DNA from: a virus
Reading direction: 5' to 3' (one strand)
DNA length: 43,507 nt
IMG/VR virus record: IMGVR_UViG_3300028394_000128
Coordinates: 1 to 43,507 of that record
The notes under the pieces are model-generated. The model searched no databases. It saw only the letters and a program-made list of their open reading frames with translations, and had not been told where the DNA came from. Of this stretch, positions 3,276-43,507 are shown one piece after another; the stretch's first letter is position 1; each line of letters opens with the position of its first letter. A program made the position numbers and the translations under genes.

Positions 3276-4033
3276 TGGCACTAATACAAGTCAGACGCGA
3301 CACCGCCGCCGCTTGGACATCAGCCAACACCACGTTGGCAACGGGTGAAATCGGTTTTGAAACCGACACCGGGAAATACAAAATCGGCAACGGGACGGCA
3401 TGGTCGGCACTCGGTTACGCAGCCGCCAGAGCCTACAGCGACCTGACGGGCACGCCAAATCTGACGGTCTATTTGACCACAGCGAACGCATCCACGACTT
3501 ATCAGCCTCTGGGCAATTATGCAACCACATCATGCCTGACGTTTAGCAATATTACTGGCAAGCCAACAACGCTATCAGGCTATGGCATCACGGACGGCTA
3601 CAGCACAAGCAACCCTTCCGGCTACATCACTGCTGGCGCAAACAGCTTTACAGGCGCGCAGAACCTACAGGATAACGAACTGATCCGAGCCAAGATCAGG
3701 GACTATTCCGAAACGGTCTCCAGCCCAACGATCTCAGCCGGAACGCTCACGCTCAATCTTGAAACGTCCAATATCTTTACGGTCAGCCTCAATGCTGCCA
3801 TCACCACACTGACGATCAGCAATACTCCTGCAAGCGGTTCTGGCGGCTCATTCACTTTGATATTTACGGCTGACGGAACAGCACGGGCAGTCACTTGGCC
3901 TGCGGCTATCAAATGGGCGGGCGGAACTGCTCCAACGCTCACATCGACTTCCGGTAAGGCCGATACCTTTGCATTCCTTACCAGCAATGGTGGGACGAGT
4001 TGGCAAGCGTACGTTGGAGGCCAGAACTTCTAA
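3275..4033 (+). CDS. Tail fibre protein with Mtd-N-like head domain
   Basis: The 252-residue protein opens with LIQVRRDTAAAWTSANTTLA and then GEIGFETDTGKYKIGNGTAW, the pattern of the phage major-tropism-determinant N-terminal domain, which caps many tail fibre and appendage proteins. A repeat-rich centre (GYGITDGY near 107) is followed by a C-terminal beta domain with LTLNLETSNIFTVSL and an AVTWPAAIKWAGGTAP stretch typical of fibre tips. It belongs to a run of five coupled fibre-like genes; the next gene begins at the TAATG junction. Probably a receptor-binding or fibre-extending subunit. Confidence 0.85.
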   Translation: MALIQVRRDTAAAWTSANTTLATGEIGFETDTGKYKIGNGTAWSALGYAAARAYSDLTGTPNLTVYLTTANASTTYQPLGNYATTSCLTFSNITGKPTTLSGYGITDGYSTSNPSGYITAGANSFTGAQNLQDNELIRAKIRDYSETVSSPTISAGTLTLNLETSNIFTVSLNAAITTLTISNTPASGSGGSFTLIFTADGTARAVTWPAAIKWAGGTAPTLTSTSGKADTFAFLTSNGGTSWQAYVGGQNF

Positions 4034-5268
4034 TGATTGCCACAAGGCTTCGCCAAAAAAACGCAGGACAAACGCCAAGCGAGTGGACCCTAGGCATACA
4101 AACCACTGCGGTCAGCCAATCGTTTGGAATGAACCTACAAAACGGGACGGGCTTTTCTGTTTCGATTGATTGGGGAGACGGATCAGCCGCAGAAGTCTTT
4201 TCCACCACGGGGATTAAAACGCACACGTATTCCGCGATTGGGGCGTATAGCATACGCATGACCTGTACTGGCCTTTGTAACATGGCCGTAGCTAGTACAA
4301 ACCCGGGGCTTGTCGTTTCCACTTCAGCGATTCCACCGGCATTTTCCACAGGAGGTGGAACGCCATTCAGCAGCACGTTTCTACAATGTGCCAACTTGGC
4401 AAGCGTCCCGGAAGACGTTTTTTGGTACACCGGGACTGCAATTACTAGCAACTCATTTAACCAGACGTTTAAAGGCTGTACATCATTAAACAATATATCC
4501 GCAAGACTGTTCGAGAAGGCTATAAGCGCAAGTAGCACTGCGTTTACTAGCACGTTTGAGCAATGCACGGGCCTGACAAGTATCCCAGCGGACCTGTTCC
4601 GTTATAATATCGGGCTGACCACCCAGGCATTCCAAAGCGCATTCCAGCAATGCACAGGCCTGACCAGTATCCCAGAAGACCTATTCCGCTATAATATTGG
4701 ACTAAGCACCTTAGCATTTATTTCCACTTTCCGAAATTGCACGGCCCTTACCAGTATCCCTGCAGACCTGTTCCGTTATAATACCGGGCTAACCTCGCAG
4801 CCATTTTCAAACACGTTTTTTGGCTGCGCGAGCCTAACTAGCATCCCTACAGACCTATTCCGCTACAATGCTGGAATAACAACCTCAGCGTTCAGTTCTA
4901 CTTTTCGAGATTGCACAGGACTTACCACGATTTCCGTGGATCTGTTTCGCTACAATGCTGGAATAACAACTTCAGCATTCAGCGCGACATTTATGGGCTG
5001 TACCGGTTTAAGCGGGTACGCAGTCCAATCGGATCTTTTAAGGTATAACACATTAATGTCAGGCACATCCACTGCATCAAGCATGTTTAGCGGTGTCGCG
5101 TTAAACACGGTTGCATATAGCAATCTGCTGATCTCGCTGAATACCTACCTGACCGCAAGCAGTTTGGGGTTTGGTGGAGGCCTATCAAAATACGACACGT
5201 CCGCAACAACAGCAAGAGCCGCTCTAGTTGCAAGAAGTTGGTCTATTGTAGACGGAGGAGCAGCTTAA
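4033..5268 (+). CDS. BspA/DUF285-like repeat adhesin, probable receptor-binding protein
   Basis: I chose the ATG at 4033, which shares its A with the previous TAA, giving 411 residues. The N-terminus (about 25-85) has SVSIDWGDGS, a PKD-like strand pattern. From about residue 115 to 345 there are seven or eight repeats of about 32 residues built on CTGLTSIPADLFRYN and xAFxSTFxxC, the pattern of BspA/DUF285 leucine-rich-like repeats found in surface proteins. The repeat is also visible in DNA at about 96-bp spacing. Such repeats are mostly known from bacterial and protist surface adhesins; in a fibre cluster this is a candidate host-recognition protein. Its C-terminus is a separate Ala/Ser-rich domain. 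Confidence 0.82.
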   Translation: MIATRLRQKNAGQTPSEWTLGIQTTAVSQSFGMNLQNGTGFSVSIDWGDGSAAEVFSTTGIKTHTYSAIGAYSIRMTCTGLCNMAVASTNPGLVVSTSAIPPAFSTGGGTPFSSTFLQCANLASVPEDVFWYTGTAITSNSFNQTFKGCTSLNNISARLFEKAISASSTAFTSTFEQCTGLTSIPADLFRYNIGLTTQAFQSAFQQCTGLTSIPEDLFRYNIGLSTLAFISTFRNCTALTSIPADLFRYNTGLTSQPFSNTFFGCASLTSIPTDLFRYNAGITTSAFSSTFRDCTGLTTISVDLFRYNAGITTSAFSATFMGCTGLSGYAVQSDLLRYNTLMSGTSTASSMFSGVALNTVAYSNLLISLNTYLTASSLGFGGGLSKYDTSATTARAALVARSWSIVDGGAA

Positions 5269-5824: not shown

Positions 5825-6354
5825 TCTTTGCAACCCTCACAACGCTGATTCTTGCGTTCATGCCACCGCCTTACGAGGCCACCGTCACAGACGTGCACGA
5901 TGGCGACACTATTAAAGTCACAGTTCCGGGCGAACCCGATAAAATCGAAATTCGGCTCTACGGTATCGACTGTCCGGAAATCAAAGTCAGCACAAAAATC
6001 GTTAATGGGAAACGAGTCGAAACCAAGTACGACAAAGGCACTCAGCCCTATGGCTTTATCGCTCGTGCCAAACTGTCGCAACTCATTTATGGCAAGAAAG
6101 TGACGGTAATTACCGAAACAAATGCCAAGACTTATGGCCGTACCGTCGCTCGCATCAAATGTGACGGAGTGGATATCAATACGGCCATGGTCGAGATGGG
6201 CATGGCACACTGGTACGAACAATATGCCAAGCACGATACCGAATTGCAATCGGCACAAACTAAAGCCAAAGCAGCCAAGATAGGTATCTGGATCGACCCT
6301 AATACTATTGCACCTTGGGAATTCAGGAAGAAGAAAAAGGAGGCGACAAAGTGA
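5821..6354 (+). CDS. Thermonuclease-like (SNase) secreted nuclease
   Basis: A 177-residue staphylococcal-nuclease-fold enzyme, a Ca-dependent cleaver of DNA and RNA. Active-site residues are present: DGDT at 27-30, RLYGIDCPE with Arg45, Asp50 and Glu53, and YGRTVAR with Arg107, equivalent to Arg35, Asp40, Glu43 and Arg87 of nuclease. The first 14 residues (ATLTTLILAFM) look like a short signal or membrane anchor, so it may act in the envelope or outside the cell. It sits between fibre genes and small membrane proteins; it could degrade host nucleic acid at lysis or clear DNA released from lysed cells. Confidence 0.9.
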   Translation: MIFATLTTLILAFMPPPYEATVTDVHDGDTIKVTVPGEPDKIEIRLYGIDCPEIKVSTKIVNGKRVETKYDKGTQPYGFIARAKLSQLIYGKKVTVITETNAKTYGRTVARIKCDGVDINTAMVEMGMAHWYEQYAKHDTELQSAQTKAKAAKIGIWIDPNTIAPWEFRKKKKEATK

Positions 6355-6566
6355 ACGACTGGATAGGCCAGATCAATCGTGCGCAGGCACGTGCGACAGC
6401 GATCAGAGCCATCGGAGCGGGCCTTGTGGCTGTTCTGGGCGTGATTGCAAGCGATGCGCCGCTGTATGTCTCGGCAGCAACGCCAGCGGGCGTAATCATT
6501 GCTGTTGTGATCGCTCAATTGCAAAGTTACCTATCAAGCGGGGTCAATCCGCCTGGGGGTAAGTAG
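6351..6566 (+). CDS. Small membrane protein, holin candidate
   Basis: Start chosen at GTG 6351 because AAGGAGG lies just upstream and the start overlaps the nuclease stop (GTGA). The 71-residue product begins with a charged helix and then has two hydrophobic stretches (AIGAGLVAVLGVIA and AGVIIAVVIAQL) separated by a short turn. That is the layout of a small class II holin-like protein. It is followed two bases later by another small membrane protein. Assignment as holin is inference from size, topology and neighbours. Confidence 0.72.
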   Translation: MNDWIGQINRAQARATAIRAIGAGLVAVLGVIASDAPLYVSAATPAGVIIAVVIAQLQSYLSSGVNPPGGK

Positions 6567-6567
6567 G

Positions 6568-6840
6568 ATGCAAACGCCTGAAATTCCGGCTTCCTCTGAT
6601 TATTCCATTCTCACAATCCCCATTTGGGCCGTATATTCCGGTTGGACGATTGCGGACATCGCAGTTCAGCCGGAGGAATCAGTTGTGATTGCATTGATCA
6701 GATCCATTCCAGCACTGCTGGCAACAGCAGCGGGCGTAATACAGGCGATCTACTCGATTCGCTTGAAGCGTGAAAAAATGGCATTGGAGCGGGAATTAAA
6801 ACTCAAAGAACTTGAGCGACGATTTCCAACGCCAGAATGA
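6568..6840 (+). CDS. Small membrane protein with charged tail, lysis-module candidate
   Basis: The 90-residue protein has two hydrophobic segments (SILTIPIWAVYSGWTIADIA and the region around IALIRSIPALLATAAGVIQA) and a strongly charged helical C-terminus (KREKMALERELKLKELE). This topology fits a holin, antiholin or spanin partner. A GGATG-spaced start two bases after the previous stop indicates coupling. A perfect hairpin follows immediately. No family recognised. Confidence 0.72.
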   Translation: MQTPEIPASSDYSILTIPIWAVYSGWTIADIAVQPEESVVIALIRSIPALLATAAGVIQAIYSIRLKREKMALERELKLKELERRFPTPE

Positions 6841-6848
6841 ATGTCCCT

Positions 6849-6878
6849 TATGTTCCCGAAAACTGTTTCGGGAACATA
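6849..6878 (+). terminator. Perfect 13-bp inverted repeat with ACTG loop
   Basis: Left arm 6849-6861 and right arm 6866-6878 are fully complementary around a four-base ACTG loop. It lies just after the stop of the membrane protein gene. There is no T-run after it, so it could be an RNA processing or stability element or a symmetric protein site rather than a simple intrinsic terminator. Confidence 0.55.
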
Positions 6879-6909
6879 CTTCCATACTCTTTGAAACAAG
6901 GCAATCGTC

Positions 6910-7131
6910 ATGCTCGAAATTCTCTTTGCAACCGCTGCTGAATGTCGTGAGGCTGCTTGCCAACCGGCAACACAAACAACGCATACCATCGTACAAACGC
7001 AACCGATCCAGCCGATTGTATTCTTGGCAATTGCTCAGCCAAAGTGGCGACCTCTGCCAAAGATCGGGCCGTTTCATCACGTTCGCAAATTTGCGGCTTA
7101 TTCGGCATGCACTTCCAAGGGATGCAAATGA
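6910..7131 (+). CDS. Small protein of unknown function
   Basis: A 73-residue product with an AAGG site upstream of its ATG. It contains repeated Gln-Pro-Ile elements (TQPIQPIVFLAIAQP) and several cysteines. Its stop overlaps the next start as ATGA, which supports translation. I recognise no family; the location suggests the lysis region. Confidence 0.55.
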   Translation: MLEILFATAAECREAACQPATQTTHTIVQTQPIQPIVFLAIAQPKWRPLPKIGPFHHVRKFAAYSACTSKGCK

Positions 7132-10957: not shown

Positions 10958-12307
10958 ATGGCCGCTTCGCCAAAACTACGTGCTGAATTCAAAAGTGCGT
11001 TTGCAGAAGCCGAATCACTTCGGCTAAACGATGATCGAACAGAAGATCAAACGGCACGATACAAGTCAATCTTGCAGGTAATTCTACCTGAACTCAAAAC
11101 GAAGATTGATGAATCGGATCAGCTTGATTCTTTAAACATTGACTCCTATCGAGATTTGACAAATAAGTCAATTGGGACGCCATATAGTGCGTCAACGCAA
11201 TCCGCAGGATCATTTTCTTTTAACCAATCTGGTGAAGCCGATGATGTTGGCCCTGGTGTTCTTACAAACAAGCAGATTGCCAAGATTTCTACCAAAGAGT
11301 ACAAAGCTTCTTTTAAAGCATTCTTGCACTTTGGGGAAGAAAAGCTAAAAAACGCTTATCCAAGGTCTTACAAAGCTTTGGTCGAAGGCATTGATGAAAG
11401 TGCCGGTTATTTTGTACCGCCTGACGTTCTCAATGAGATCGTTATGCGAAAGGCGGCACCAACTACGCTTCGCGGTCGTGTGCGACAAATTACGACCAAC
11501 AGTAATCGTATTGTGATGCTTAGGACAACTTATCGTGACGACATTCACACAAGTCCGATTCAGGGCATGTGGACTGGTGAAGCTGGATCTCCTACGGAAT
11601 CACTTCCACCAACATTTGGTGAAGTCAGTATTCCGATCCATGAATACATGGGCAGGATTTCTATGTCGAATACGCTTTTGGATGACAGCGGTTTCAATCT
11701 TGAAGCCTACTTTAACGAAGAGCTTCAGACATGGCTTGAACTGCACTACGAAAAACACCTTGCGTATGGAACTGGCGTAGGCCAACCAAGGGGCATTTGG
11801 AACTCAATTTCCTCAAGTGCGGGTGGAGAAGCCGGTAAGTTTGGCTTTGTGACTACCGGCACATCAGGTTCAATTGATGCCGACACTGTTAAAAGCATGG
11901 GTTTTAGCATTCTTCCCCAGTATGCTCAACCGAATTTTGCCTACGTCATGAACCAACAAACAGCCAAAGCTATCAGCCTTCTGAAAGCCTCAACTGGGTC
12001 GGTAAATAACGGGGCCTACCTGTTCCAACGTGGTCAATTGTATCCCGGTATCGTTGAACGTACACCTGACCAAATTGACGGCTTCCCAATTGCCTACAGC
12101 ATGTTTGCTCCGGCAGTCGCATCAAGTGCATTCCCAGTTTTCTTTGGGTCGCTTCAAGGAGTGTTCATGCCGATCAGACTGGGCTTGTCTGTTCGCGTTC
12201 TGAACGAAATTGAAGCTTTGAGCAACCGACGTGTTTATCTGTTCCGTCTTCGATGGGGTTCAGACACGATCCAAGAACAATACGGCAAATTCATCAAGGT
12301 ACTTTGA
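10958..12307 (+). CDS. Major capsid protein, HK97 fold
   Basis: The 449-residue protein has a charged helical N-terminal region of about 130 residues that fits a delta/scaffold domain removed by the upstream protease. The shell domain follows, with ESAGYFVPPDVLNEIVMRKA (near 145), IPIHEYMGRISMSNTLLDDS, AYGTGVGQPRGIW, and the C-terminal GSLQGVFMPIRLGLSVRVLN. These are standard positions for HK97-type capsids. Start preceded by AAGGGG. It packs into the icosahedral shell as hexamers and pentamers. Confidence 0.94.
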   Translation: MAASPKLRAEFKSAFAEAESLRLNDDRTEDQTARYKSILQVILPELKTKIDESDQLDSLNIDSYRDLTNKSIGTPYSASTQSAGSFSFNQSGEADDVGPGVLTNKQIAKISTKEYKASFKAFLHFGEEKLKNAYPRSYKALVEGIDESAGYFVPPDVLNEIVMRKAAPTTLRGRVRQITTNSNRIVMLRTTYRDDIHTSPIQGMWTGEAGSPTESLPPTFGEVSIPIHEYMGRISMSNTLLDDSGFNLEAYFNEELQTWLELHYEKHLAYGTGVGQPRGIWNSISSSAGGEAGKFGFVTTGTSGSIDADTVKSMGFSILPQYAQPNFAYVMNQQTAKAISLLKASTGSVNNGAYLFQRGQLYPGIVERTPDQIDGFPIAYSMFAPAVASSAFPVFFGSLQGVFMPIRLGLSVRVLNEIEALSNRRVYLFRLRWGSDTIQEQYGKFIKVL

Positions 12308-17779: not shown

Positions 17780-20656
17780 ATGGCTGGAAACGGTAATCTG
17801 AATTTAACCGGAGAATCGTTTGAAAAGCTAAAGAGCCTTATCGACGATCTTACAAAATCAGCCAATCAAGCAAAAGAAGCTATAGCCGGAATATTCAATT
17901 CTGGAAAAATAGGAAAAGATTGGTCAAAATCGTTAAACGATGCTGTCAAGGCATTGAATGGAGTTTCCAAAAAGAACTCGAATAAATCTTCTGATAGTAG
18001 TAAATCTAAAGATAAATCTGATGCCGCAAAAGCAGCGGCTAAATTAATTGAAAAAGCTGCCCGTGTCGATGCAAAATTGAAGGATGCTGCTGCAAAAGCA
18101 GCAGCTAAAGTAATCGCTCAAACGGCAAATGCGTCTGCTAAAGCAACAAAGCAAACGGCAAGCCTGTCTGCCAAAGCAACAAAGCAAGCGGCAAGCCTGT
18201 CTGCCAAAGCAACAAAGCAAGCGGCAAGTGCGTCTGCTAAAGCAACAACACAGGCAGCAAGCCTGTCTGCTAAAGTAACAAAGCAAGCGGCAAGTGCGTC
18301 TGCCAAAATAACAACACAGGCAGCAAGCCTGTCCGCTAAAGCAACGGCTCAATCTGCCAGTTCAGCAGCCAGAATGACAACGCAAGCGGCAAACTTGTCT
18401 TCCAGAATGACAAGGCAAGCGGCGAATACGTATGCAAGAGCAACGGCCCAAGCGTCGGCACAACAAGCCGCACAAGCAAGGGCAGCAGCCAGAATGACAA
18501 CGCAAGCGGCAAATGCTTCTGCCAGAATAACAATTCAGGCGGCAAATGCGTCCGCAAGATTAACCAGCCAAGCGGCAAGAGCAAGAGCGGCACAGGTAAT
18601 TGCTGCGGCAAGAGCAGCTAATGCTGCGGCTAAACCGGCTGCAACCAAAAAGTCGTTCTTGAATATGGGATTCATAGATAGGCTTGTTGAAGCGTCTGGA
18701 TTAAAAGAAAAAATCCGTACCGCTAGATCAATGTTTTTTGGTGGACAAAGCGCAGGGCAACTATATAGAAACCAAAACGGAAAAGGTGGAGGTTTTGCCA
18801 ACACGGGCGGAAACTTGTTTTCAAGGTATGGCGGCGCAGGTGCTTTAGGTGGAGTCCTTGGAAGATTCCGTATGTTTGAAAAACCGTTCCCAGGATCAGA
18901 AAGAAACCAGTTTGCACTTGGAGACAGCACGGCGGCATTTGCCAATATAATACATGGTGCTGGAATGACAGCAAAAGTTGCATTTTCCGGTTTAACTTCG
19001 GCGGCATCGTTGGCAGCAAAAGGATTGGTTTCTGTACCTGTAGGAATAGTATCGTTGCTCAATCCTGCTGTCGGCGCACTTCTTTCAAGCGTAAACGATA
19101 TGTTTTTTGGTATATTTAACACACTATCAGCCGCTATATCAGGCGTTATAGGGTCTCTAACCAACCTTTCTACAGCACTTCTTGGATTTGCATCAAGAGC
19201 GGTTGAATCTGCATCAAAATTTACCGAAACCGTTAATGCTGCAAAAGTTGTAACAGGGGTTGAAACTGGCAACAAATTAAAAACAACTGCAATTGAACTT
19301 CAAAGAAATTACGGATTGTCGGCCATAGATAGTATGCGTGGCATGGGAAGAATTGCCGGAATGCTTGTCCAGCAAGGCGGGTTTACCCAAAAAGAAGCTG
19401 GAATCCAGTCCGAAGAAATAGCCAGACAGTTGGCTGACGTAGCATCTGTCAATAACAGAAACATAGAAGATCTTATGCGCGATATGATGTCCGGTCTTGC
19501 CGGACGATTTACGCCTATGAGAAAAAACATGATGGGATTTCAAGCTCCTGTTCTTGATATTATGGCCAAAAATAAAGGGATAGCAAATCCAAATCTTCGT
19601 ACCGATTTAGTCGCAAGAACAAAAATGTTCATAGAGGAATTTACACGCCAAGCGGGACTGTTTGCAGGCGACTTAGCAAACACAAGGTTTGAATTTGCCA
19701 ACCAGAAAAGGAAATTCCTTGGAGGATTTGAGGCACTTTTTATGTCTGTAGGCCAAATACTTGAGCCGTTTGCCAAAGTTGTGCTATTTGCTACAAATGA
19801 TCTTATGGATCAATTGCTTTCAATAATAGAACCGTTCGCAGTTAATCCGTTCCAGACATTTAAAACGGAAATAGAAAGTTTTGCGTCGTATGTGTCTTAC
19901 GCTAAAAACGTAATTATTTCTATGGTAAAACAAATATGGAGTTTAAGACAAGAGATTTTGGAGCTTGCCATAAACTTAGCAAATTTTGGATTGGAAATAA
20001 CTAGGGCAGTTTTAAATATCACTTTGGCGGTACTTAATGGGGTATTTGCAATTACCGATGCGTTTGGCGGGATAGTCGCTACAAGCGAACTTCTTGCGTC
20101 CGCAATGCAAGGACTTTCCCGTTTGATTAATTCTCTTTCTGGTGGTCCGATGATGGGAGCGATAGTGGGAGGAATGGCGGCTCCGCTGTTGGCTCCACTG
20201 GTGGGTCCGGTGGGTCCACTGGTGGGTCCGCTGATTGGAGCGATGGTGGGAGGAGTGGGTAAACCAAATAAAAACAAGCCATTTGATCGTGTTGACGTTA
20301 TGCAAAAAAAACTTATGGATAATCTTGGAAAGATTGATTTGGATATGAACGATGTGCGTGACTGGTTTAAAAACGCTGCGCCAGCGGCAGCAAAAGCGGG
20401 CAACGTAGCACCACAAGACCCCCTTGCGGCGGCAGGAAGAATGGTGCAATATTTTGATCCTGCGGCCTTTAGAGATGCCGTGCAAGAGAGAGAAATGGGC
20501 GTCCAGACAAGGATTGCAAATGCGGCAGAAAAAATACTTCTGGTTCTTGAAAAACCAGATCCATTACACCCAAAAATTGCAGGACCAATGGCTGTGCCTA
20601 TCGGCCTTGGCGCGATGGGCGTGCTTGAAGGAATGAAACGAGTAGCTAAACCATGA
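17780..20656 (+). CDS. Tape measure protein
   Basis: The 958-residue protein is the longest in the window. After a Lys/Ser-rich N-terminus, residues about 85-290 form an Ala-rich run of 11-residue units such as ASLSAKATKQA, a hendecad coiled coil. The middle has hydrophobic stretches (LTSAASLAAKGLVSVPVGIV; ISGVIGSLTNLSTALLGFA), and residues about 790-835 are Gly/Pro rich (LLAPLVGPVGPLVGPLIGAM). At roughly 0.15 nm per residue a tail near 140 nm is expected. It lies inside the tail tube and may help DNA cross the membrane. GAGGATATACT precedes the ATG. Confidence 0.92.
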   Translation: MAGNGNLNLTGESFEKLKSLIDDLTKSANQAKEAIAGIFNSGKIGKDWSKSLNDAVKALNGVSKKNSNKSSDSSKSKDKSDAAKAAAKLIEKAARVDAKLKDAAAKAAAKVIAQTANASAKATKQTASLSAKATKQAASLSAKATKQAASASAKATTQAASLSAKVTKQAASASAKITTQAASLSAKATAQSASSAARMTTQAANLSSRMTRQAANTYARATAQASAQQAAQARAAARMTTQAANASARITIQAANASARLTSQAARARAAQVIAAARAANAAAKPAATKKSFLNMGFIDRLVEASGLKEKIRTARSMFFGGQSAGQLYRNQNGKGGGFANTGGNLFSRYGGAGALGGVLGRFRMFEKPFPGSERNQFALGDSTAAFANIIHGAGMTAKVAFSGLTSAASLAAKGLVSVPVGIVSLLNPAVGALLSSVNDMFFGIFNTLSAAISGVIGSLTNLSTALLGFASRAVESASKFTETVNAAKVVTGVETGNKLKTTAIELQRNYGLSAIDSMRGMGRIAGMLVQQGGFTQKEAGIQSEEIARQLADVASVNNRNIEDLMRDMMSGLAGRFTPMRKNMMGFQAPVLDIMAKNKGIANPNLRTDLVARTKMFIEEFTRQAGLFAGDLANTRFEFANQKRKFLGGFEALFMSVGQILEPFAKVVLFATNDLMDQLLSIIEPFAVNPFQTFKTEIESFASYVSYAKNVIISMVKQIWSLRQEILELAINLANFGLEITRAVLNITLAVLNGVFAITDAFGGIVATSELLASAMQGLSRLINSLSGGPMMGAIVGGMAAPLLAPLVGPVGPLVGPLIGAMVGGVGKPNKNKPFDRVDVMQKKLMDNLGKIDLDMNDVRDWFKNAAPAAAKAGNVAPQDPLAAAGRMVQYFDPAAFRDAVQEREMGVQTRIANAAEKILLVLEKPDPLHPKIAGPMAVPIGLGAMGVLEGMKRVAKP
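18110..18600 (+). repeat. 33-bp coding repeats in the tape measure gene
   Basis: About 15 imperfect tandem copies of a 33-bp unit encode the 11-residue hendecads. Several adjacent copies around 18150-18330 are nearly identical, pointing to recent expansion or contraction, which would change tail length in steps of 11 residues. Confidence 0.8.
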
Positions 20657-32169: not shown

Positions 32170-32634
32170 TTAATCAGTGATATTGTGATATGAAAGTGCT
32201 ATGCAAATAGCGTCAGACTCCCCATCGGTAAGATCGTCAAGTGAAGGGTATTTTTCTTTGCAATAAACGATTGAGCGTTTTTTGCCAAGTTTTTTGTCAA
32301 TACCATCGAGAACTTTTTGCCAAGTTTTAGGCATGACGAATTCGTATGGTATTCCAAGCCCCGAAGATAACCCCTGCAAGATTCCAAAGCCTTGCCCGAA
32401 AGTAAACATTGACAAAACTCCCTGCTTAGGCATTGCGTGAACCCTTTCGATGACGATTGACGTTCCATGTGGAAGTGTTCGCCAATCTTCAAATATTTTT
32501 TTTATAGATTGGCAATCAATCACTTTTTTTGTACCGAATTTTACAACTGGCATTTCGTATGTCGCTAGGACATCGCGGTTTTTAACGATTGCAATTCCGC
32601 CAGATAAGCTGGGGTCAACTCCAATGATTATCAT
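32170..32634 (-). CDS. RuvC-like Holliday junction resolvase
   Basis: The 154-residue RNase H-fold nuclease begins IIGVDPSLSGG (Asp7), has VIERVHAMPKQGV (Glu63) and DGESDAICIAL with Asp137 and Asp141, the four acidic residues of RuvC-type resolvases. Resolves branched replicating DNA before packaging, consistent with lying next to the terminase. Start overlaps the upstream stop by four bases. A second RuvC-like gene lies at 34901-35380. Confidence 0.9.
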   Translation of the reverse strand: MIIIGVDPSLSGGIAIVKNRDVLATYEMPVVKFGTKKVIDCQSIKKIFEDWRTLPHGTSIVIERVHAMPKQGVLSMFTFGQGFGILQGLSSGLGIPYEFVMPKTWQKVLDGIDKKLGKKRSIVYCKEKYPSLDDLTDGESDAICIALSYHNITD

Positions 32635-32966
32635 TCATCCACCGCCTTTCTTTGCTTGATTTCCATGATCCTTGGCATTCGTTCTCCTAGGTACTTCTCG
32701 ACCCGGTACCAGCTTCGTCGCCAATGCCTAGCGGCTTCGACTTTATCTGCGGAGCTTGAGGATAAACTCGTAGCCTTGAGCTCATTGATGCTAGTGGTGT
32801 CGGCAACGTGTTGGAGCTTATTGCCTAGCTTATGGTATTCATTTGAGAGTTTATTGTCTTCTGTGCCATCTGCTTTGTCATAGCAGATTTCTGCTAGCTT
32901 GGATACGATGGTTTGTACGTCGTATTTGCCGATGAGTGTGTGTAGGTCTTGGTTTAGGCTTGGCAT
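32631..32966 (-). CDS. Small helical protein, unknown
   Basis: A 111-residue charged protein with a central Ser-rich stretch (TSINELKATSLSSSSADKVE) and a basic C-terminus ARHWRRSWYRVEKYLGERMP. It shares with its upstream neighbour the C-terminal sequence RKAVDE, encoded by similar DNA, which suggests a duplicated gene end. No family recognised. Confidence 0.68.
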   Translation of the reverse strand: MPSLNQDLHTLIGKYDVQTIVSKLAEICYDKADGTEDNKLSNEYHKLGNKLQHVADTTSINELKATSLSSSSADKVEAARHWRRSWYRVEKYLGERMPRIMEIKQRKAVDE

Positions 32967-33265
32967 TCATCCACCGCCTTTCTTCGCTTGATTTCCTGAT
33001 TCAAATACCATATCGCCTTTTCGATATCCTCAATCGCGTTACCCTTCAGGTCTGCTCGCCAAATATACTTCATTGCATTTCCAAGGTTGAAGCCCATGTG
33101 CTGGGTAATTTCAATGCACTCGACGCCTGACGGGTGGCTTGTGTAATGCTTCGGATGGTTGACCGGGTCATGTGGAATCGGCTCTGTTGTCCACTGAAAC
33201 CTCAGATAATCATCGACTACGGCATTAAACTTTGCCGAAAGTTCGTCCAGTTCCTCTTTGCTCAT
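32954..33265 (-). CDS. DUF3310 protein
   Basis: The 103-residue protein contains VNHPKHYTSHPSGVECIEIT, then HMGFNLGNAMKYIWRADLKG and AIEDIEKAIWYLNQEI, the full signature of the DUF3310 family widespread in phages and sometimes described as nucleotide-kinase-like. Its function is not established. The end RRKAVDEC resembles the end of the next gene downstream. Overlaps the first DUF551-like gene by ATGA. Confidence 0.88.
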   Translation of the reverse strand: MSKEELDELSAKFNAVVDDYLRFQWTTEPIPHDPVNHPKHYTSHPSGVECIEITQHMGFNLGNAMKYIWRADLKGNAIEDIEKAIWYLNQEIKRRKAVDECQA

Positions 33266-33507
33266 GATATCGACCTCCAGTGTGTAGGTGTTTTGCCTAA
33301 CTCATACGAAACAGGCTTTATCGCATGGTCTATGGTGTTCCAATAAGCAAATTTGGAATGATACCACTGCCAGGCTTCGGGGTATGGCGCGTAGCGTAAA
33401 CCGAACATCTGCCCGCCGCCGCTGTCGGCATCCATGCAAACAACCACCGTCTGGCCCATCGGCGGCAATGTTGCCGGATCGTCCGTAATCTCGATCCATT
33501 CGCTCAT
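33262..33507 (-). CDS. DUF551-like protein, copy 1
   Basis: Start at ATG 33507 (81 residues), right after TGGAGG at the end of copy 2. WIEITDDPATLPPMGQTVVV at residues 4-23 and GKTPTHWRS at the end match the DUF551 pattern (W-I-x-V-x-D-x-L-P-x-x-G-x-V, then T-H-W). Function unknown. Four further paralogues lie directly upstream in tandem, each coupled to the next. Confidence 0.78.
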   Translation of the reverse strand: MSEWIEITDDPATLPPMGQTVVVCMDADSGGGQMFGLRYAPYPEAWQWYHSKFAYWNTIDHAIKPVSYELGKTPTHWRSIS

Positions 33508-33764
33508 GGTATCGACCTCCAGTGTGTGGGTGTTTTGCCGACCTCTTGTGACACTGGCCGAATGCATTTGCGGAAAATACACCAGTTTGCCGTTTTACAA
33601 TAGCACCACTGCGGAACCTCCCACTGCCGGGCTTTAGAATATGACGCATAGCGAAATTCGAGCTCCTCACCGCCGCCGCTGTCGGCATTCATGCGGACAA
33701 TCACCTCCTCCCCCACCTCCGGCAGCGTGGCCGGATCGTCTGTGATTTCAATCCATTTTCTCAT
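33504..33764 (-). CDS. DUF551-like protein, copy 2
   Basis: Start at ATG 33764 (86 residues), overlapping copy 3's stop by four bases. KWIEITDDPATLPEVGEEVI then RMNADSGGGEELEFRYASYS, ending GKTPTHWRSIP. About half identical to copy 1 by eye. The terminal CAC TGG AGG codons provide the Shine-Dalgarno for copy 1. Confidence 0.78.
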   Translation of the reverse strand: MRKWIEITDDPATLPEVGEEVIVRMNADSGGGEELEFRYASYSKARQWEVPQWCYCKTANWCIFRKCIRPVSQEVGKTPTHWRSIP

Positions 33765-34033
33765 ACTGTTGGCCTCCAATGTGTAGGTGTTTTGCCTGTG
33801 CCATTAAGTATAGGTTGTATTGATTGACTAATATGGCTCCAATAGGCCGTATTGGAATGGAACCACTGCCAGGTGTCGGGGAACCGTGAATATTGCCAAT
33901 TGAGGTCAAGCCGCCCATCACGCAATCCAAACATCTCACCGCTTCCGCTGTCGGCATTCATGCGGAGAATCACCGTCTGCCCTATTTCCGGCAGCGTTGC
34001 CGGATCGTCAGTAATTTCGATCCATGTGCTCAT
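33761..34033 (-). CDS. DUF551-like protein, copy 3
   Basis: 90 residues from ATG 34033: TWIEITDDPATLPEIGQTVI, then RMNADSGSGEMFGLRDGRLD, ending GKTPTHWRPTV. It is closest to copies 1 and 2. Its last codons again read CAC TGG AGG before the next start, although here the third-from-last bases differ slightly (ACATTGGAGG). Confidence 0.78.
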   Translation of the reverse strand: MSTWIEITDDPATLPEIGQTVILRMNADSGSGEMFGLRDGRLDLNWQYSRFPDTWQWFHSNTAYWSHISQSIQPILNGTGKTPTHWRPTV

Positions 34034-34365
34034 TCAACCGGCCTCCAGTGTGTAGGGGGGACAGGCCCAACTGGTCTTATATAGTCGCAGCACATGGACT
34101 TGTCGTACTTAGACCAAGCTGCCTTTGTCGAGTAATACCATTGCCAGTCGCTGCCGGTGCGGCGATAGTCTGGCCGAAGACCGAAGCACTCGCCCCCCTC
34201 GTTGCGTATTACGACGAGCCGGCTCAACTCCGGAAGCGTTGCGTGATCGTCTGTGATCTCGATCCACTCCGGCTTCGGCTTCGCTTGCATCAGGTTGTAA
34301 ACGGTCAAGGCTGCGGCCTTAGCTTCGCCATGTGGCAAGCTGGCAATAAAATCAAGCGTTATCAT
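34030..34365 (-). CDS. DUF551-like protein, copy 4, with extra N-terminal domain
   Basis: 111 residues from ATG 34365. The first 30 residues (ITLDFIASLPHGEAKAAALT) form an N-terminal segment shared only with copy 5; then EWIEITDDHATLPELSRLVV and a divergent middle, ending PTHWRPVE. The start lies in a variant of the junction motif (ATGATAACGCTTGA) and overlaps copy 5's stop by one base. Confidence 0.76.
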   Translation of the reverse strand: MITLDFIASLPHGEAKAAALTVYNLMQAKPKPEWIEITDDHATLPELSRLVVIRNEGGECFGLRPDYRRTGSDWQWYYSTKAAWSKYDKSMCCDYIRPVGPVPPTHWRPVE

Positions 34366-34652
34366 CAGATCGGCCTCCAGTGTGTTGGTGTCATACTGTC
34401 TCGCGACCCGTATTTTCGGTCTTCAAAATCCCTCGATTTCCATTTTTTTATTTCCCGGTCCAAATGGTTTCCCCACATGGCCAAGAATCTGCGAGATTTA
34501 CATTTGGCCAGCACCCAAATTCCGAATGTTGGCATAGTGGCCGGATCGTCAGTGATTTCGGTCCACACCGGTGACATCAGGTTGTATGTGGTCAACGCCG
34601 CAGCCTTGGCCTCGCCATGTGGCAAGCCGGCGATAAAATCAAGCGGTGTCAT
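34365..34652 (-). CDS. DUF551-like protein, copy 5, most divergent
   Basis: 95 residues from ATG 34652 within the motif ATGACACCGCTTGA. MTPLDFIAGLPHGEAKAAAL opens it, then VWTEITDDPATMPTFGIWVL and a basic divergent middle, ending TPTHWRPI. AAGGAG lies upstream. The N-terminal segment is nearly identical to copy 4, implying a recent duplication or recombination within the array. Confidence 0.76.
   Translation of the reverse strand: MTPLDFIAGLPHGEAKAAALTTYNLMSPVWTEITDDPATMPTFGIWVLAKCKSRRFLAMWGNHLDREIKKWKSRDFEDRKYGSRDSMTPTHWRPI
34639..34652 (-). repeat. Gene-junction motif ATGACACCGCTTGA, copy a
   Basis: Starts the DUF551 copy 5 gene in frame 1 and supplies the TGA stop (last three bases) of the 57-residue gene 34639-34812 in frame 3. 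Confidence 0.85.
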
Positions 34653-34812
34653 TTGTTGGCTCCTTGTTATCCTCAATCTTGTGGATCATGGCTAGTAGTA
34701 AAGTCGTTGGTATAGTGATCTTTTCGCGTTTGTGTTGTATCTGATAGGTTGCACAACGCTTCCATCCGTCAATAACTTCTGGTGTCAGAAGTTCTTTATC
34801 AAGCGGTGTCAT
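34639..34812 (-). CDS. 57-residue small protein
   Basis: Read from ATG 34812: MTPLDKELLTPEVIDGWKRC, then a helical remainder ending KEPTNDTA. It opens with the junction motif and ends inside the next copy of it, overlapping by exactly 14 bases. AGACGAC lies upstream as a weak ribosome site. Function unknown. Shares only the MTPLD start with neighbours. Confidence 0.65.
   Translation of the reverse strand: MTPLDKELLTPEVIDGWKRCATYQIQHKREKITIPTTLLLAMIHKIEDNKEPTNDTA
34799..34812 (-). repeat. Gene-junction motif ATGACACCGCTTGA, copy b
   Basis: Starts the 57-residue gene and supplies, in frame 2 (bases 2-4, TGA), the stop of the 31-residue gene 34809-34904. Confidence 0.85.
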
Positions 34813-34904
34813 TGTCGTCTCTCTTTATGTAGGTCGTAAACTGCCAATATCACGGCTGCAAACATACCGGCTGCCGCAGCTACAATACAATCAAGCGGTG
34901 TCAT
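34809..34904 (-). CDS. 31-residue single-span membrane microprotein
   Basis: Read from ATG 34904: MTPLDCIVAAAAGMFAAVIL, then AVYDLHKERRQ. A hydrophobic segment of about 18 residues with a positively charged tail predicts one membrane span with the C-terminus inside. It starts in a junction motif and ends by ATGA in the next. Tight packing on both sides and an AAAGAGAG site before the next gene support translation. Confidence 0.6.
   Translation of the reverse strand: MTPLDCIVAAAAGMFAAVILAVYDLHKERRQ
34891..34904 (-). repeat. Gene-junction motif ATGACACCGCTTGA, copy c
   Basis: Starts the 31-residue gene; its bases 2-4 (TGA) stop the RuvC-like gene 34901-35380. Confidence 0.85.
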
Positions 34905-35380
34905 TGCACTTGGCCCTTCTTAAACTCGTGATACTTGGCGATTGCAAACGCTGAACGCTTGTCGCTCGCTCCCCGTAGCAGGTACAGCGGGTCGCCCTTC
35001 TTGCTGGACGGCCCGTAGATTGATTCTAAGCCGGCCCTGAGCGTTGCGTCGTTGAGCTTGCCGCCGGCGGTGATCCATTGGCCATATTCGCGGCGAGTGT
35101 ACACGGCGAGCGTCAGGCCCTCATAGATGGCAACCCTTTTTAGTTCCCCAATAAAGTACATCGTCTGGATCGACGATTCACCAACCGGGCGGCCTTGACA
35201 CGCAAACCCCTCGAGTGAAAATTCGTGAGGTTTTGCCCAAGGCGATTGCATGATTTTAACGAGTTCGGCGTTTTCGATCTTTTCCGCCATTTGGATGTTA
35301 AAGATTTTGCTCTGAGCGCATGCAATTATCATGCATATTCCGCTATGTGTGCTTCCGGGGTCGATTCCGGTAATTACCAT
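34901..35380 (-). CDS. Second RuvC-like / RNase H-fold nuclease
   Basis: The 159-residue protein begins VITGIDPGSTHSGICM (Asp7), has EFSLEGFACQGRPVG (Glu57) and a C-terminal LRGASDKRSAFAIAKYHEF with the expected acidic residue. The three-acid layout matches RuvC/RNase H-fold proteins. It is not closely similar to the resolvase at 32170-32634, so the two are probably independent acquisitions with different substrates. Starts right at the end of the gene upstream (sharing a base). Confidence 0.78.
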   Translation of the reverse strand: MVITGIDPGSTHSGICMIIACAQSKIFNIQMAEKIENAELVKIMQSPWAKPHEFSLEGFACQGRPVGESSIQTMYFIGELKRVAIYEGLTLAVYTRREYGQWITAGGKLNDATLRAGLESIYGPSSKKGDPLYLLRGASDKRSAFAIAKYHEFKKGQVQ

Positions 35381-35760
35381 TATTCTAACTCCTTGATATA
35401 AACAACAGGCCGCTTGGTAAGTTCGGCCTCAAGATCGGCAACCTTGGCCTCAAGGTTGATAATTTGCAATCCTGTATATTCAAGCGGTGTCATTTTCGTC
35501 TTTAATTCTTGTTTCTCGGGTCCTGTCCGTTCGTATTTGTCAAAATTTTTAATGAGATAGCAGGCGATCTCGTCAAAGTTCAAACTCAAAAGTTTGCCTG
35601 GTTGTAAATTGAAATTTACATACCATTGCGACTGGTAATCGAATATGAAACGGACGTACACGTCCCATTCAGACCACGTAATCTTGTAACCAGCCAGCGG
35701 CGTTAGTGTGCGAAGATAGTTGATAAAGTTATCTGCTGCTTTGCGTTCAAACGGTGTCAT
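35380..35760 (-). CDS. Fused small protein: MTPFER family domain plus coiled-coil tail
   Basis: 126 residues from ATG 35760. Residues 1-89 (MTPFERKAADNFINYLRTLT, later LSLNFDEIACYLIKNFDKYE) are a paralogue of the gene at 36028-36315, ending at the same KTK. Then an internal in-frame junction motif gives MTPLEYTGLQIINLEAKVAD with a leucine-zipper-like tail. So two formerly separate genes appear fused, or the tail (37 residues) is also made from ATG 35493. Confidence 0.72.
   Translation of the reverse strand: MTPFERKAADNFINYLRTLTPLAGYKITWSEWDVYVRFIFDYQSQWYVNFNLQPGKLLSLNFDEIACYLIKNFDKYERTGPEKQELKTKMTPLEYTGLQIINLEAKVADLEAELTKRPVVYIKELE
35480..35493 (-). repeat. Gene-junction motif ATGACACCGCTTGA, copy d (in-frame)
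   Basis: The only copy lying in the same frame as its upstream gene, so it does not stop it. Internal start at 35493 is preceded by AAAGACGAAA, similar to the site before copy f. Confidence 0.75.
35747..35760 (-). repeat. Gene-junction motif variant ATGACACCGTTTGA, copy e
   Basis: Starts gene 35380-35760 and supplies, by its last three bases, the stop of the Cys-rich gene 35747-36031. Confidence 0.8.
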
Positions 35761-36031
35761 TGCAATCCGTCTCCAGACTAGTATCTATGGCAAGCCAAAG
35801 CATTGCGAGTTCGTAGATTTCTTTCACATTTTCGCCTTCTTTGGCTTGATCGCAAAGCAGGTAAAGGTACTTGGAGAGATGAGATCGCAACGATTTCAGA
35901 TGTTTTGGCTGAATACGCACGAATTTTATTGGCTCAAGCGGTGGCGATACGCAATCGCAGCAATTTGTGCATAAGTTGCAGACCTTGCAAAGGTTGTAAT
36001 CTCGGTGCTTGTGGCATTCCGGGCAGTTCAC
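35747..36031 (-). CDS. Zinc-ribbon-like Cys-rich small protein
   Basis: 94 residues from GTG 36031 (GTGA overlap with the upstream stop). The N-terminus has CPECHKHRDYNLCKVCNLCT and then NCCDC, nine cysteines in the first 30 residues, probably binding two zinc ions. The rest is helical. It ends inside the junction motif variant, overlapping the next gene by exactly 14 bases. Function unknown. Confidence 0.7.
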   Translation of the reverse strand: MNCPECHKHRDYNLCKVCNLCTNCCDCVSPPLEPIKFVRIQPKHLKSLRSHLSKYLYLLCDQAKEGENVKEIYELAMLWLAIDTSLETDCNDTV

Positions 36032-36315
36032 TTTGTCCTCAATTCTCGTTTCTCGTGTGCTGTCCGCTCGTATTTGTCAAAATCTTTAATGAGATAGCAA
36101 GCGTACTCGTCGAAGCTAAGGCTCAAGAGGCTTCTTGGATGTAAATCGAAAGTTACACACCATTCCGAAGTTACACACCATTCCGACTGGTAATCGAATC
36201 TGAAACGGGCGTTCAAGTCCCACTCAAACCACTTAATCTTGTAACAAGCCAGCCTCGGCAGTGCCGAAAGATAGTTGATAAAGTTATCTGCCGCTTCGCG
36301 TTCAAGCGGTGTCAT
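36028..36315 (-). CDS. MTPLER family small protein
   Basis: 95 residues from ATG 36315 (GAGG upstream). MTPLEREAADNFINYLSALP and LSLSFDEYACYLIKDFDKYE make it a clear paralogue of residues 1-89 of gene 35380-35760. It carries a perfect in-frame 18-bp tandem duplication giving SEWCVTSEWCVT, absent in the paralogue. Function unknown. Confidence 0.72.
   Translation of the reverse strand: MTPLEREAADNFINYLSALPRLACYKIKWFEWDLNARFRFDYQSEWCVTSEWCVTFDLHPRSLLSLSFDEYACYLIKDFDKYERTAHEKRELRTK
36151..36186 (-). repeat. Perfect 18-bp tandem duplication
   Basis: AGTTACACACCATTCCGA occurs at 36151-36168 and again at 36169-36186 (plus-strand reading), adding six codons in frame. Its perfect identity suggests a recent slippage event. 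Confidence 0.9.
36302..36315 (-). repeat. Gene-junction motif ATGACACCGCTTGA, copy f
   Basis: Starts gene 36028-36315. Here the upstream gene stops nine bases earlier, so the motif is used only as a start. Confidence 0.85.
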
Positions 36316-36323
36316 TTTCGTCC

Positions 36324-36602
36324 TCAATTCTCGTTTCTTGTGTGCTGTCGTTGTATATCAATTTCTGCCATTTCGGCCAAATGTTTTTGGCAGTATTCGT
36401 CGAAATTGAACCCCCAATGTTTTTGGCAGTATTCGTCGAAAGTGTCGTATTCGCTTTGATAAAGCCGATTGATCCTGATTTTCATCAAGGCCGTTCCAAC
36501 TTCGGCAAACACTTGCTTGCCTCGGTCAATAATGGTTTCGAGTTCGCTCAATGATTCAAAAATGACCGCAGGATTGACGGTATCAATTTTAGACTCATTC
36601 AT
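36324..36602 (-). CDS. Truncated relative of plasmid/phage 'FDEYCQKHWG' helical proteins
   Basis: 92 residues: FESLSELETIIDRGKQVFAE then ALMKIRINRLYQSEYDTFDE YCQKHWG pattern, which is the N-terminal part of a common plasmid/phage family where a DNA-binding region normally follows. Here it stops after a duplicated FDEYCQKH block and a short charged tail, so it looks truncated. The duplication comes from 26-bp direct repeats 36 bp apart. Function unknown. Confidence 0.62.
   Translation of the reverse strand: MNESKIDTVNPAVIFESLSELETIIDRGKQVFAEVGTALMKIRINRLYQSEYDTFDEYCQKHWGFNFDEYCQKHLAEMAEIDIQRQHTRNEN
36380..36441 (-). repeat. 26-bp direct repeat, 36-bp period
   Basis: Copies at 36380-36405 and 36416-36441 are identical over 26 bases and lie 36 bp (12 codons) apart, duplicating FDEYCQKH in frame. 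Confidence 0.88.
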
Positions 36603-41993: not shown

Positions 41994-42241
41994 GATTGAG
42001 CCTTTTCAAAAGCTGGATAACACATCAAATTCCTATGGACAGGCGTATATATTATCGCAGCCCATTTGCCAGGATTCTTCAGAAAAGCTTCCAAGGCCAA
42101 TCTACTGCCGTATCGCTTTACTCGATAATCACCAAAAAGGAATTCAGGCGTTTTAATTGCGATAAGATTGGCGTCGGGCCTCTCTTGCAATTCGGAGATT
42201 CTGCCCAAGCTAATATACTTAGGCAGTGCTGTGGTTTTCAT
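41990..42241 (-). CDS. Small protein, unknown
   Basis: 83 residues: MKTTALPKYISLGRISELQE, then LIAIKTPEFLFGDYRVKRYG. Alpha/beta mixture. Coupled to the next gene by ATGA. No family recognised. Confidence 0.66.
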   Translation of the reverse strand: MKTTALPKYISLGRISELQERPDANLIAIKTPEFLFGDYRVKRYGSRLALEAFLKNPGKWAAIIYTPVHRNLMCYPAFEKAQS

Positions 42242-42274
42242 ACTCTGTCCCCCTGTTTGTTACGTGTTAATGGA

Positions 42275-42538
42275 TCAGGACGTTATGTTGCGAAGGGTGG
42301 CCCATGCATTCAAGGCGGCTCTGTTCCAGAAGATTCTCGCTCTTTCGAGTGCTGACGTTCCAGCACATGCCCACAAATCCAAGCCCCCGCAATCTTTGAC
42401 TTGGTCACGGAAGCAAAATGACCTTATTTCACGAAAATCGGTCGAATTCTTGTGGAATTCTTGTGGCGGTGAACTTCCGCCCGTCCATGCTGTCAATGCA
42501 AATCTGTTTATGTCGTTCTTGAGTGAATCGCGGCTCAT
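42275..42538 (-). CDS. First gene of the leftward accessory region, unknown
   Basis: 87 residues from ATG 42538 with AAAGGA upstream: MSRDSLKNDINRFALTAWTG, then CFRDQVKDCGGLDLWACAGT. It follows a candidate promoter about 75 bases upstream. The frame is open further upstream to 42649 but that part overlaps the promoter. No family recognised. Confidence 0.62.
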   Translation of the reverse strand: MSRDSLKNDINRFALTAWTGGSSPPQEFHKNSTDFREIRSFCFRDQVKDCGGLDLWACAGTSALERARIFWNRAALNAWATLRNITS

Positions 42539-42615
42539 GATGGAATCCTTTGTTTGTTGCTTCTTTGAGTGCCTGGTTGACACTCTTGTTTCTGTTCCCT
42601 TCGTCCCACACCAAT

Positions 42616-42643
42616 AGATTAGCACAGAACGAACAGGAGTCAA
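42616..42643 (-). promoter_or_regulatory. Candidate leftward promoter of the accessory region
   Basis: TTGACT (42643-42638), 16-base spacer, TAATCT (42621-42616), with an extended -10 TG (TGCTAATCT). Confidence 0.6.
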
Positions 42644-42683
42644 CAACAAAAGAATATATATTTTTATAAATTGTATGGAAAGT

Positions 42684-42689
42684 TATAAA
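42684..42689 (+). promoter_or_regulatory. Possible -10 box for the structured RNA
   Basis: TATAAA in an AT-rich stretch about 50 bases upstream of the first helix; no good -35. A second extended -10 (TGTTAAAGT, 42730-42738) would start transcription inside the pseudoknot, so it is less likely. Confidence 0.3.
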
Positions 42690-42734
42690 CGGTATGGGAT
42701 TAAAACTTGTGGACAAATTTTGGAATCCGTGTTA

Positions 42735-43340
42735 AAGTGGTAAGTGGCCAGAACGGACCCAGGTTGACCCCTATCACCTGCCTTACCGATTCTGGCTTGA
42801 CGTAACTACAATCGGGTACAGACTTTCGGTCGATATCCGGTACGTTGCGTAACAGAGGTACGATAAGAGCCTGAAAGGGCACACCTAGACGCGAAATGGA
42901 TCGCATACTGTTACGCAGCGGTGAGATAGGGGAAATGGCTTTTGAGAGTTGGATCACTGAACACAGACGAGATTCGCCAAGGCGGATCAGAATTTTGTGA
43001 AGCCTACAAACATAGCCCCCCATTTGGGCCACTTGGTCAGACCACCAGTAGGCGAGAGGTGAGGAATAGTGCTTGAGGGAAAAGGGTTTAACAAACCCGA
43101 GCGAGTTAGTCGCATCAAGCAGGGTTACAGTGGTGGTCATCCCGTATCCGCAAGTGGTTGACGCCAACAATTGAATCGCGGCTCTGTTTAAACCTAACAA
43201 CCGCGCCCGTGCATGGCCCCCAAAGGGCGAAATCAGTCAACGACAGCAGATACCAGACCTTCCCCATCTCGCAGCGTAAAGTCAGTGGAACAAACGGTTT
43301 GATCCACAGGCACACATGCACGGGATAAAGGTTGTTGCTT
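42735..43340 (+). ncRNA. Candidate large ornate structured RNA
   Basis: No convincing gene, but many complementary segments nest consistently. Helices seen: GGTAAG 42739-42744 with 42782-42787 and GCCAGAA 42747-42753 with 42790-42796 (interleaved, an H-type pseudoknot); ACGTA 42800-42804/42841-42845; a perfect 10-bp helix 42846-42855/42908-42917 enclosing a GCCT-GAAA-GGGC tetraloop hairpin (42869-42880); 42971-42977/42982-42988; 43040-43047/43131-43138; 43070-43076/43115-43121 enclosing two hairpins (43084-43098 and 43101-43113); 43196-43202/43330-43336 stacked on a perfect 10-bp helix 43206-43215/43315-43324. GU pairs and the GNRA loop favour the plus strand. Boundaries are approximate. Size and phage context recall GOLLD and ROOL RNAs, but I cannot assign a family. 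Confidence 0.72.
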
Positions 43341-43366
43341 GACTTTTCGTAAAACAGTTGTAAAAC
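43339..43366 (+). promoter_or_regulatory. Candidate rightward promoter at the right end
   Basis: TTGACT (43339-43344), 16-base spacer, TAAAAC (43361-43366). If the molecule is circular or permuted it would lead through the repeat into the portal operon. Confidence 0.45.
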
Positions 43367-43418
43367 CTACAGTGGACGTTAGTACATTACTTTAGTGGCA
43401 ATTTTGGTGTCCATTTTA

Positions 43419-43507
43419 GGACCAACCAGCGGACACCACCAGATGACCAACCAGCGGACCAACCAGCGGACACCACCAGATGACCAACCAGCGGACCAAC
43501 CAGCGGA
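43419..43507. repeat. 37-bp tandem repeat running off the window
   Basis: Unit of three sub-repeats: GGACCAACCAGC, GGACACCACCAGAT, GACCAACCAGC. Full units at 43419-43455 and 43456-43492, with a third starting at 43493 and cut by the window end. Units are identical. Could be an origin iteron set, packaging site or a coding repeat (an ATG at 43443 opens a frame to the end). Confidence 0.9.

Follow-up and report, generated by a model that had tools for sequence, protein, structure and literature searches.

A likely structured RNA of about 600 nucleotides near the end of an uncultured phage contig

Introduction

Phages are known to carry only a small number of large structured RNAs. Here, we ask whether a gene-poor region near the right end of an uncultured phage contig encodes such an RNA, and whether this RNA belongs to GOLLD or ROOL or to a class of its own. 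The window that we analysed is the entire IMG/VR virus record IMGVR_UViG_3300028394_000128 (43,507 bases). It encodes a portal, major head protein, thymidylate synthase, helicase, primase, RecE-like exonuclease and large terminase.

Results and Discussion

Coding potential and genome setting

The original prediction held that the region at the right end contains no plausible gene, and this was borne out: 42241-43507 is without a convincing gene. The longest ORF over the region, and the sole long one, is on the minus strand at 42700-43200 (166 aa, TTG start), and neither it nor the other ORFs overlapping the RNA candidate had a match in a Pfam search. A second phage, IMGVR_UViG_3300023184_000332 (L010), carries a copy that is 94-95% identical over 905 nt and 95-96% identical over the RNA. 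The two copies are separated by four 1-nt indels (at 42855, 42874, 43007 and 43168), all within the span of the 166-aa ORF. As single-base indels break the frame, they argue against coding and the region probably has no coding role; with these indels and no Pfam match, no conserved reading frame runs across it. The identity of the RNA to the L010 copy (about 95%) is not above that of nearby genes (90-98%), so strong conservation of the RNA is not established.

The record terminates in 12/37-nt tandem repeats, as does the L010 contig, and its end is therefore probably an assembly break. In a relative (L094; 12,977 nt, TerL 72% identical), a single contig has the order TerL, small genes, portal, and the right end of the window thus probably joins its left end. 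This would place the RNA candidate in an intergenic position, flanked by leftward early genes and rightward late genes. No tRNA genes were found in the 43,507-nt window or in its relatives.

Further repeats were seen in this phage group. Close relatives carry ATATGAACATAT-type repeats immediately upstream of the portal gene (L003:130-300 and L004:370-560), which the window lacks because its contig begins just inside them. In L094, a non-coding gap upstream of the portal (11540-12040) holds many inverted copies of GGTCC/GGACC and TGGTCA/TGACCA, possibly an operator or origin region. Within the window, short minus-strand genes at 32600-36600 cross-match extensively with genes of the relatives, which suggests a tandemly duplicated small-protein family. 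The 87/174-nt tandem repeats at 4559-4927, inside a 422-aa ORF (4000-5268, phrog_9915 match), resemble repeated protein modules, and 33/66-nt tandem repeats at 18132-18578 are part of a 958-aa ORF that has no PHROGs match.

Predicted structure and transcript ends

The following features were located in the window.

42710-42738, plus strand: promoter-like TGGACA-17 nt-TAAAGT with TG ahead of the second hexamer (sigma70-like, consensus match only)
42739-42744, plus strand: GGTAAG, proposed 5' arm of a pseudoknot (partner 42782-42787); invariant in L010
42745-43340, plus strand: core of the candidate structured non-coding RNA (fold z -3.5, pair preservation, indels, no Rfam match); its 3' end may lie at about 43420
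42746-42797, plus strand: hairpin 1, outer helix GGCCAGAA/TTCTGGCT, which includes GCCAGAA/TTCTGGC (pair probability 0.91)
42811-42841, plus strand: hairpin 2, 31 nt, with a 2x2 internal loop (pair probability 0.95-0.97); aligns to L094 6240-6270 (31 nt)
42843-42920, plus strand: three-way junction with a 13-bp outer helix and second hairpin GCGA/UCGC (z -5.1); L094 6271-6354 has the same skeleton
42971-42988, plus strand: hairpin GATTCGCC-AA-GGCGGATC (pair probability 0.99); one wobble pair lost in L010
43070-43121, plus strand: branched element with the closing helix TGCTTGA/TCAAGCA and two hairpins, 43084-43098 and 43101-43113; pair 43084/43098 compensated in L010
43195-43337, plus strand: 3' domain closed by TAACAACC/GGTTGTTG and a perfect 10-bp helix, 43206-43215/43315-43324 (z -4.6 for 43190-43339)
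43366-43420, plus strand: terminator-like long hairpin, possible 3' end (z -2.3, unchanged in L010, non-canonical as a terminator)
43419-43507, no strand assigned: 12/37-nt tandem repeats within which the contig terminates

The promoter-like element is the sole good match on the plus strand here, and L010 has a match at the corresponding place (TAGACA-17-TAAAGT). Its position points to a transcript start near 42745, and the hairpin at 43366-43420 may end the transcript. The helices that had been named are present (GGTAAG 42739-42744/CTTACC 42782-42787 and GCCAGAA 42747-42753/TTCTGGC 42790-42796), as is the perfect 10-bp long-range helix formed by CCCGTGCATG (43206-43215) and CATGCACGGG (43315-43324). 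Perfect 10-bp inverted repeats had 2 start points where 0.15 were expected (P = 0.03, 2,000 shuffles), which is modest on its own. In the junction, the outer arms (42843-42855/42908-42920) are 13 nt each and 92% complementary, and the inner stem AGGU/ACCU carries a bulged ACGAUAAGA and a hairpin.

Other parts of the original prediction held in part. Both arm pairs of the proposed H-type pseudoknot exist in the sequence, but GGTAAG falls between the -10 box and the predicted start and is probably mostly untranscribed. As it lies at or before the start, the pseudoknot is probably absent from the transcript, whereas the GCCAGAA/TTCTGGC helix stays; the pseudoknot arms are invariant between the window and L010, so comparison offers them no support. 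The window has the GAAA tetraloop (42873-42876), but this is replaced in L010, where GCCT-GAAA-GGGC becomes GCCCG-ATT-CGGGC and the helix is kept. Wobble pairs had been offered as evidence of direction. One of these agrees, as T42872-G42877 becomes C-G in L010, but T42974-G42985 becomes T-T and the pair is lost.

Fold energy and base changes

The plus strand of 42745-43340 folds at -206.8 kcal/mol, compared with -181.7 +/- 7.1 for shuffled sequences (z -3.5, 0/60 shuffles as low), and the minus strand has a z of -1.05. The L010 copy gave z -3.3 on the plus strand (0/60 shuffles) and -1.9 on the minus strand. With the slightly different limits of the original prediction and 20 shuffles, there was little difference between the strands (z -2.6 and -3.0). 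As the result varies with the limits chosen, the contrast between the strands carries little weight. Among the subdomains, 42843-42920 had a z of -5.1, 43190-43339 of -4.6 and 42745-42842 of -3.0. Random 150-nt windows of the same phage genome also attain z -4, while a real ROOL (pMP118) scores only -1.09 over its whole length, so fold energy is a weak yardstick both ways. Because background windows reach z -4, we do not count energy by itself as evidence.

We compared base changes between the window and L010, using pairs predicted from one sequence only, so that circularity was avoided (span limit 220 for the L010 structure). For pairs derived from L010, 9/11 of those that changed remain paired in the window on the plus strand (3.8 by random placement, P 0.0004) and 2/8 are kept on the minus strand (P 0.96). 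Pairs derived from the window were kept in 6/9 changed cases on the plus strand (P 0.06) and 2/4 on the minus strand. Under other settings, preservation was weaker or mixed, and one minus-strand setting scored well too. Random placement with refolding matched the alignment energy in 1/240 cases on the plus strand and 7/240 on the minus strand. The sole fully compensated pair is 43084/43098, where G-C becomes A-T in L010 through changes on both sides. Changes at 42746, 42748, 42822, 42966 and 43282 pass through G-U pairs, which would read as A-C mismatches on the opposite strand; in hairpin 1, two L010 changes both still pair via G-U/A-U. Some predicted pairs fail in L010, notably 42974-42985. 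Together, the base changes favour a plus-strand structure, with covariation that is thin between two close copies. A functional structured RNA of about 600 nt on the plus strand is the likely reading of this sequence, backed by the fold energy, the strand-specific preservation of pairs and the promoter match that both phages retain.

A probable distant homologue

Few homologues were found. Searches of phage and plasmid collections returned no similar DNA. Among viral contigs, a 20-mer and a 16-mer from the RNA hit the L010 contig only, plus chance matches, and a gapped pattern of the junction brought up just two further regions, both unrelated and apparently coding. A 17-mer from the RNA gave chance matches only in bacterial genomes. 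About 80 distant terminase relatives held no detectable copy of the RNA, and a search of bacterial genomes for terminase relatives found none.

A candidate was identified in L094, where a stretch of about 660 nt without a convincing gene (6193-6855) lies just after a promoter-like TTGTCT-18-TATAAT (6157-6186). It sits between minus-strand ORFs, about 5 kb before the portal and not adjoining it. The element had no convincing Rfam match, and its overlapping ORFs had no Pfam match. Its first 165 nt or so align structurally to 42745-42922, with hairpin 1, a linker, the 31-nt hairpin 2 and the three-way junction in common. Hairpin 2 has internal loops at the same places in both, and the junction starts 0-1 nt later. 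The score of this 5' alignment (z 2.6-2.7) was reached by 2/300 shuffles of the one sequence, 2/300 of the other and 0/193 real L094 segments, P values that are optimistic because the match was first found by eye.

Both three-way junctions carry GAUAAGAG, and both have an inner stem with a bulged GAUAAGA that is followed directly by a hairpin. Folded alone, the L094 junction has the same layout as that of the window. Among the loci compared, this skeleton was found only in the window/L010-type RNA and the L094 RNA; the structure alone has a frequency of 0.0006 per random position. Comparison by hand revealed two-sided pair changes, with GACGG/CCGUC in L094 for AACAG/CUGUU in the window, UGGC/GCCA for AGGU/ACCU and GGUA/UACC for GCGA/UCGC.

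The likeness is confined to the 5' part. Structural alignment over the whole length exceeded shuffles only slightly (z 1.35 and 2.05), and the 3' two thirds of the RNA, after the junction, showed no alignment to L094, with a score below shuffles. The L094 element as a whole is not unusually stable (z -0.23). A covariance model built from the window and L010 copies failed to pick up L094, which is a weak negative, as this is nearly a single-sequence model. Overall, the L094 element is a probable distant homologue with a common 5' domain.

Other 7- to 9-mers common to the window and L094 looked collinear and were rejected, as their contexts differ and TAAAGTC is lost in L010. The L094 candidate is part of about 1.3 kb with few convincing genes (5837-7130), and TGGTCGTCTGACCAGC-type repeats follow it at about 6911-6965, recalling the repeats after the window RNA.

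Alternative explanations

The stretch could be a cis-acting leader of the late (portal) operon, transcribed on into the structural genes as a long 5' UTR or as an element for antitermination or attenuation. With the contig ends joined as in L094, the RNA points to the portal gene, and the hairpin at 43366-43420 does not have the form of a canonical terminator. However, tandem repeats stand between the RNA and the portal, the L094 candidate is placed about 5 kb upstream of the portal between minus-strand ORFs, and L004 has another sequence directly upstream of the portal, with a terminator-like hairpin at its end. We consider a leader unlikely, although it survives best among the rivals.

A replication origin or packaging site, with inverted repeats that act as DNA, would agree with the A-T-rich 42650-42720 just upstream, the tandem repeats downstream and the long non-coding gap. 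The fold strength and pair preservation, G-U changes included, instead favour a plus-strand RNA. GC skew along the phage genome tracks gene direction and does not turn at the RNA candidate, and a DNA element is improbable.

The original prediction offered two options, membership of GOLLD or ROOL and a new class. Membership found no support: the region had no match up to E 10 in an Rfam scan, and searches with the GOLLD and ROOL families over the window plus relatives had none either. Across the 4,227 families of Rfam 15 (introns, RNase P, tmRNA, OLE and others), no covariance model matched the region, and the only hit was a weak, unrelated gltS outside it (E 5.8). A true ROOL was found by the same scan at 130.4 bits, whereas GOLLD had no control above the cut-off. 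As there is no Rfam match, the ROOL control was found and no tRNA is nearby, the RNA is not a recognisable GOLLD or ROOL and is probably a large phage RNA distinct from both. A member of either family so divergent that the covariance models miss it would share the size class, phage setting and multi-domain fold, but the missing match (set against the 130 bits of a true ROOL, with no GOLLD control over the cut-off) and the lack of tRNA neighbours make this very doubtful. Least probable is an ordinary non-coding stretch with chance helices and no function, for which the few homologues, the other 150-nt windows at z -4 and the P of 0.03 for the two 10-bp repeats could speak, against the whole-element z of -3.5 (0/60 shuffles), the strand-specific pair preservation, the promoter kept in L010 and the aligned 5' domain in a second lineage.

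A probable stand-alone phage RNA

The element is rather probably a stand-alone structured RNA. The best overall explanation, which we favour with some reserve, is a phage-encoded RNA of this kind with its own promoter and a proposed role as a scaffold in trans. A sigma70-type promoter on the plus strand would yield an RNA of about 600-680 nt. Its predicted fold has three parts: a 5' domain, in which two hairpins adjoin a three-way junction; a branched middle; and a compact 3' domain that long-range helices close. The product would be the folded RNA itself. Its likeliest role, by analogy with GOLLD and ROOL, would be that of a trans-acting scaffold during infection, possibly as a homo-oligomer; given a stand-alone structured RNA, we put such action at somewhat under an even chance.

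Of the two options originally offered, a new class fits better. With two close copies and a single, partly aligned distant candidate behind it, such a class is plausible rather than established. It would be unrelated to GOLLD and ROOL in sequence, would be marked by the two 5' hairpins and the GAUAAGAG junction, and would differ in location between two lineages of the same phage group, perhaps forming an RNA-only particle; we hold this complete picture tentatively, at not far below even. If the class is independent, this would suggest that phages repeatedly evolved giant RNAs. It would also provide a compact case of about 600 nt for structural work and raise the question of whether phages use RNA-only particles as a general strategy.

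Comparison with known large RNAs

The packaging RNA (pRNA) of phi29 is a structured phage RNA of about 174 nt that serves a different packaging ATPase. The window RNA would likewise be a structured phage RNA, on the portal side of the genome, but its phage has a large terminase and it has no Rfam match. Within the partial coverage of our literature search, no further large phage RNA that would fit was found. OLE RNA is a bacterial structured RNA of about 600 nt (PMC9723947) that forms homo-oligomers (PMC12286853). It resembles the window RNA as a large structured RNA but is found in Gram-positive extremophilic or anaerobic bacteria and not as a phage RNA.

ROOL (RF03087) is carried by phages, prophages or mobile elements; it measures 520-660 nt, has many helices and encodes no protein (PMC12286853, PMC5643018), and the window RNA is like it in each of these respects: phage origin, size class, many helices and no protein product. 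However, the ROOL model does not match the window RNA, and ROOL is often near phage tRNA islands, whereas the window RNA has no tRNA neighbours; tRNAs are frequent beside GOLLD and ROOL but do not define them (PMC12286853). GOLLD (RF02032) is also a large phage RNA; its expression increases during lysis and, like ROOL, it assembles into a cage made of RNA only (PMC12286853). GOLLD is often >800 nt and its 3' region is universally conserved (PMC12286853), whereas the core of the window RNA is about 600-680 nt, without a model match or a nearby tRNA, and the part that it has in common with L094 is the 5' region.
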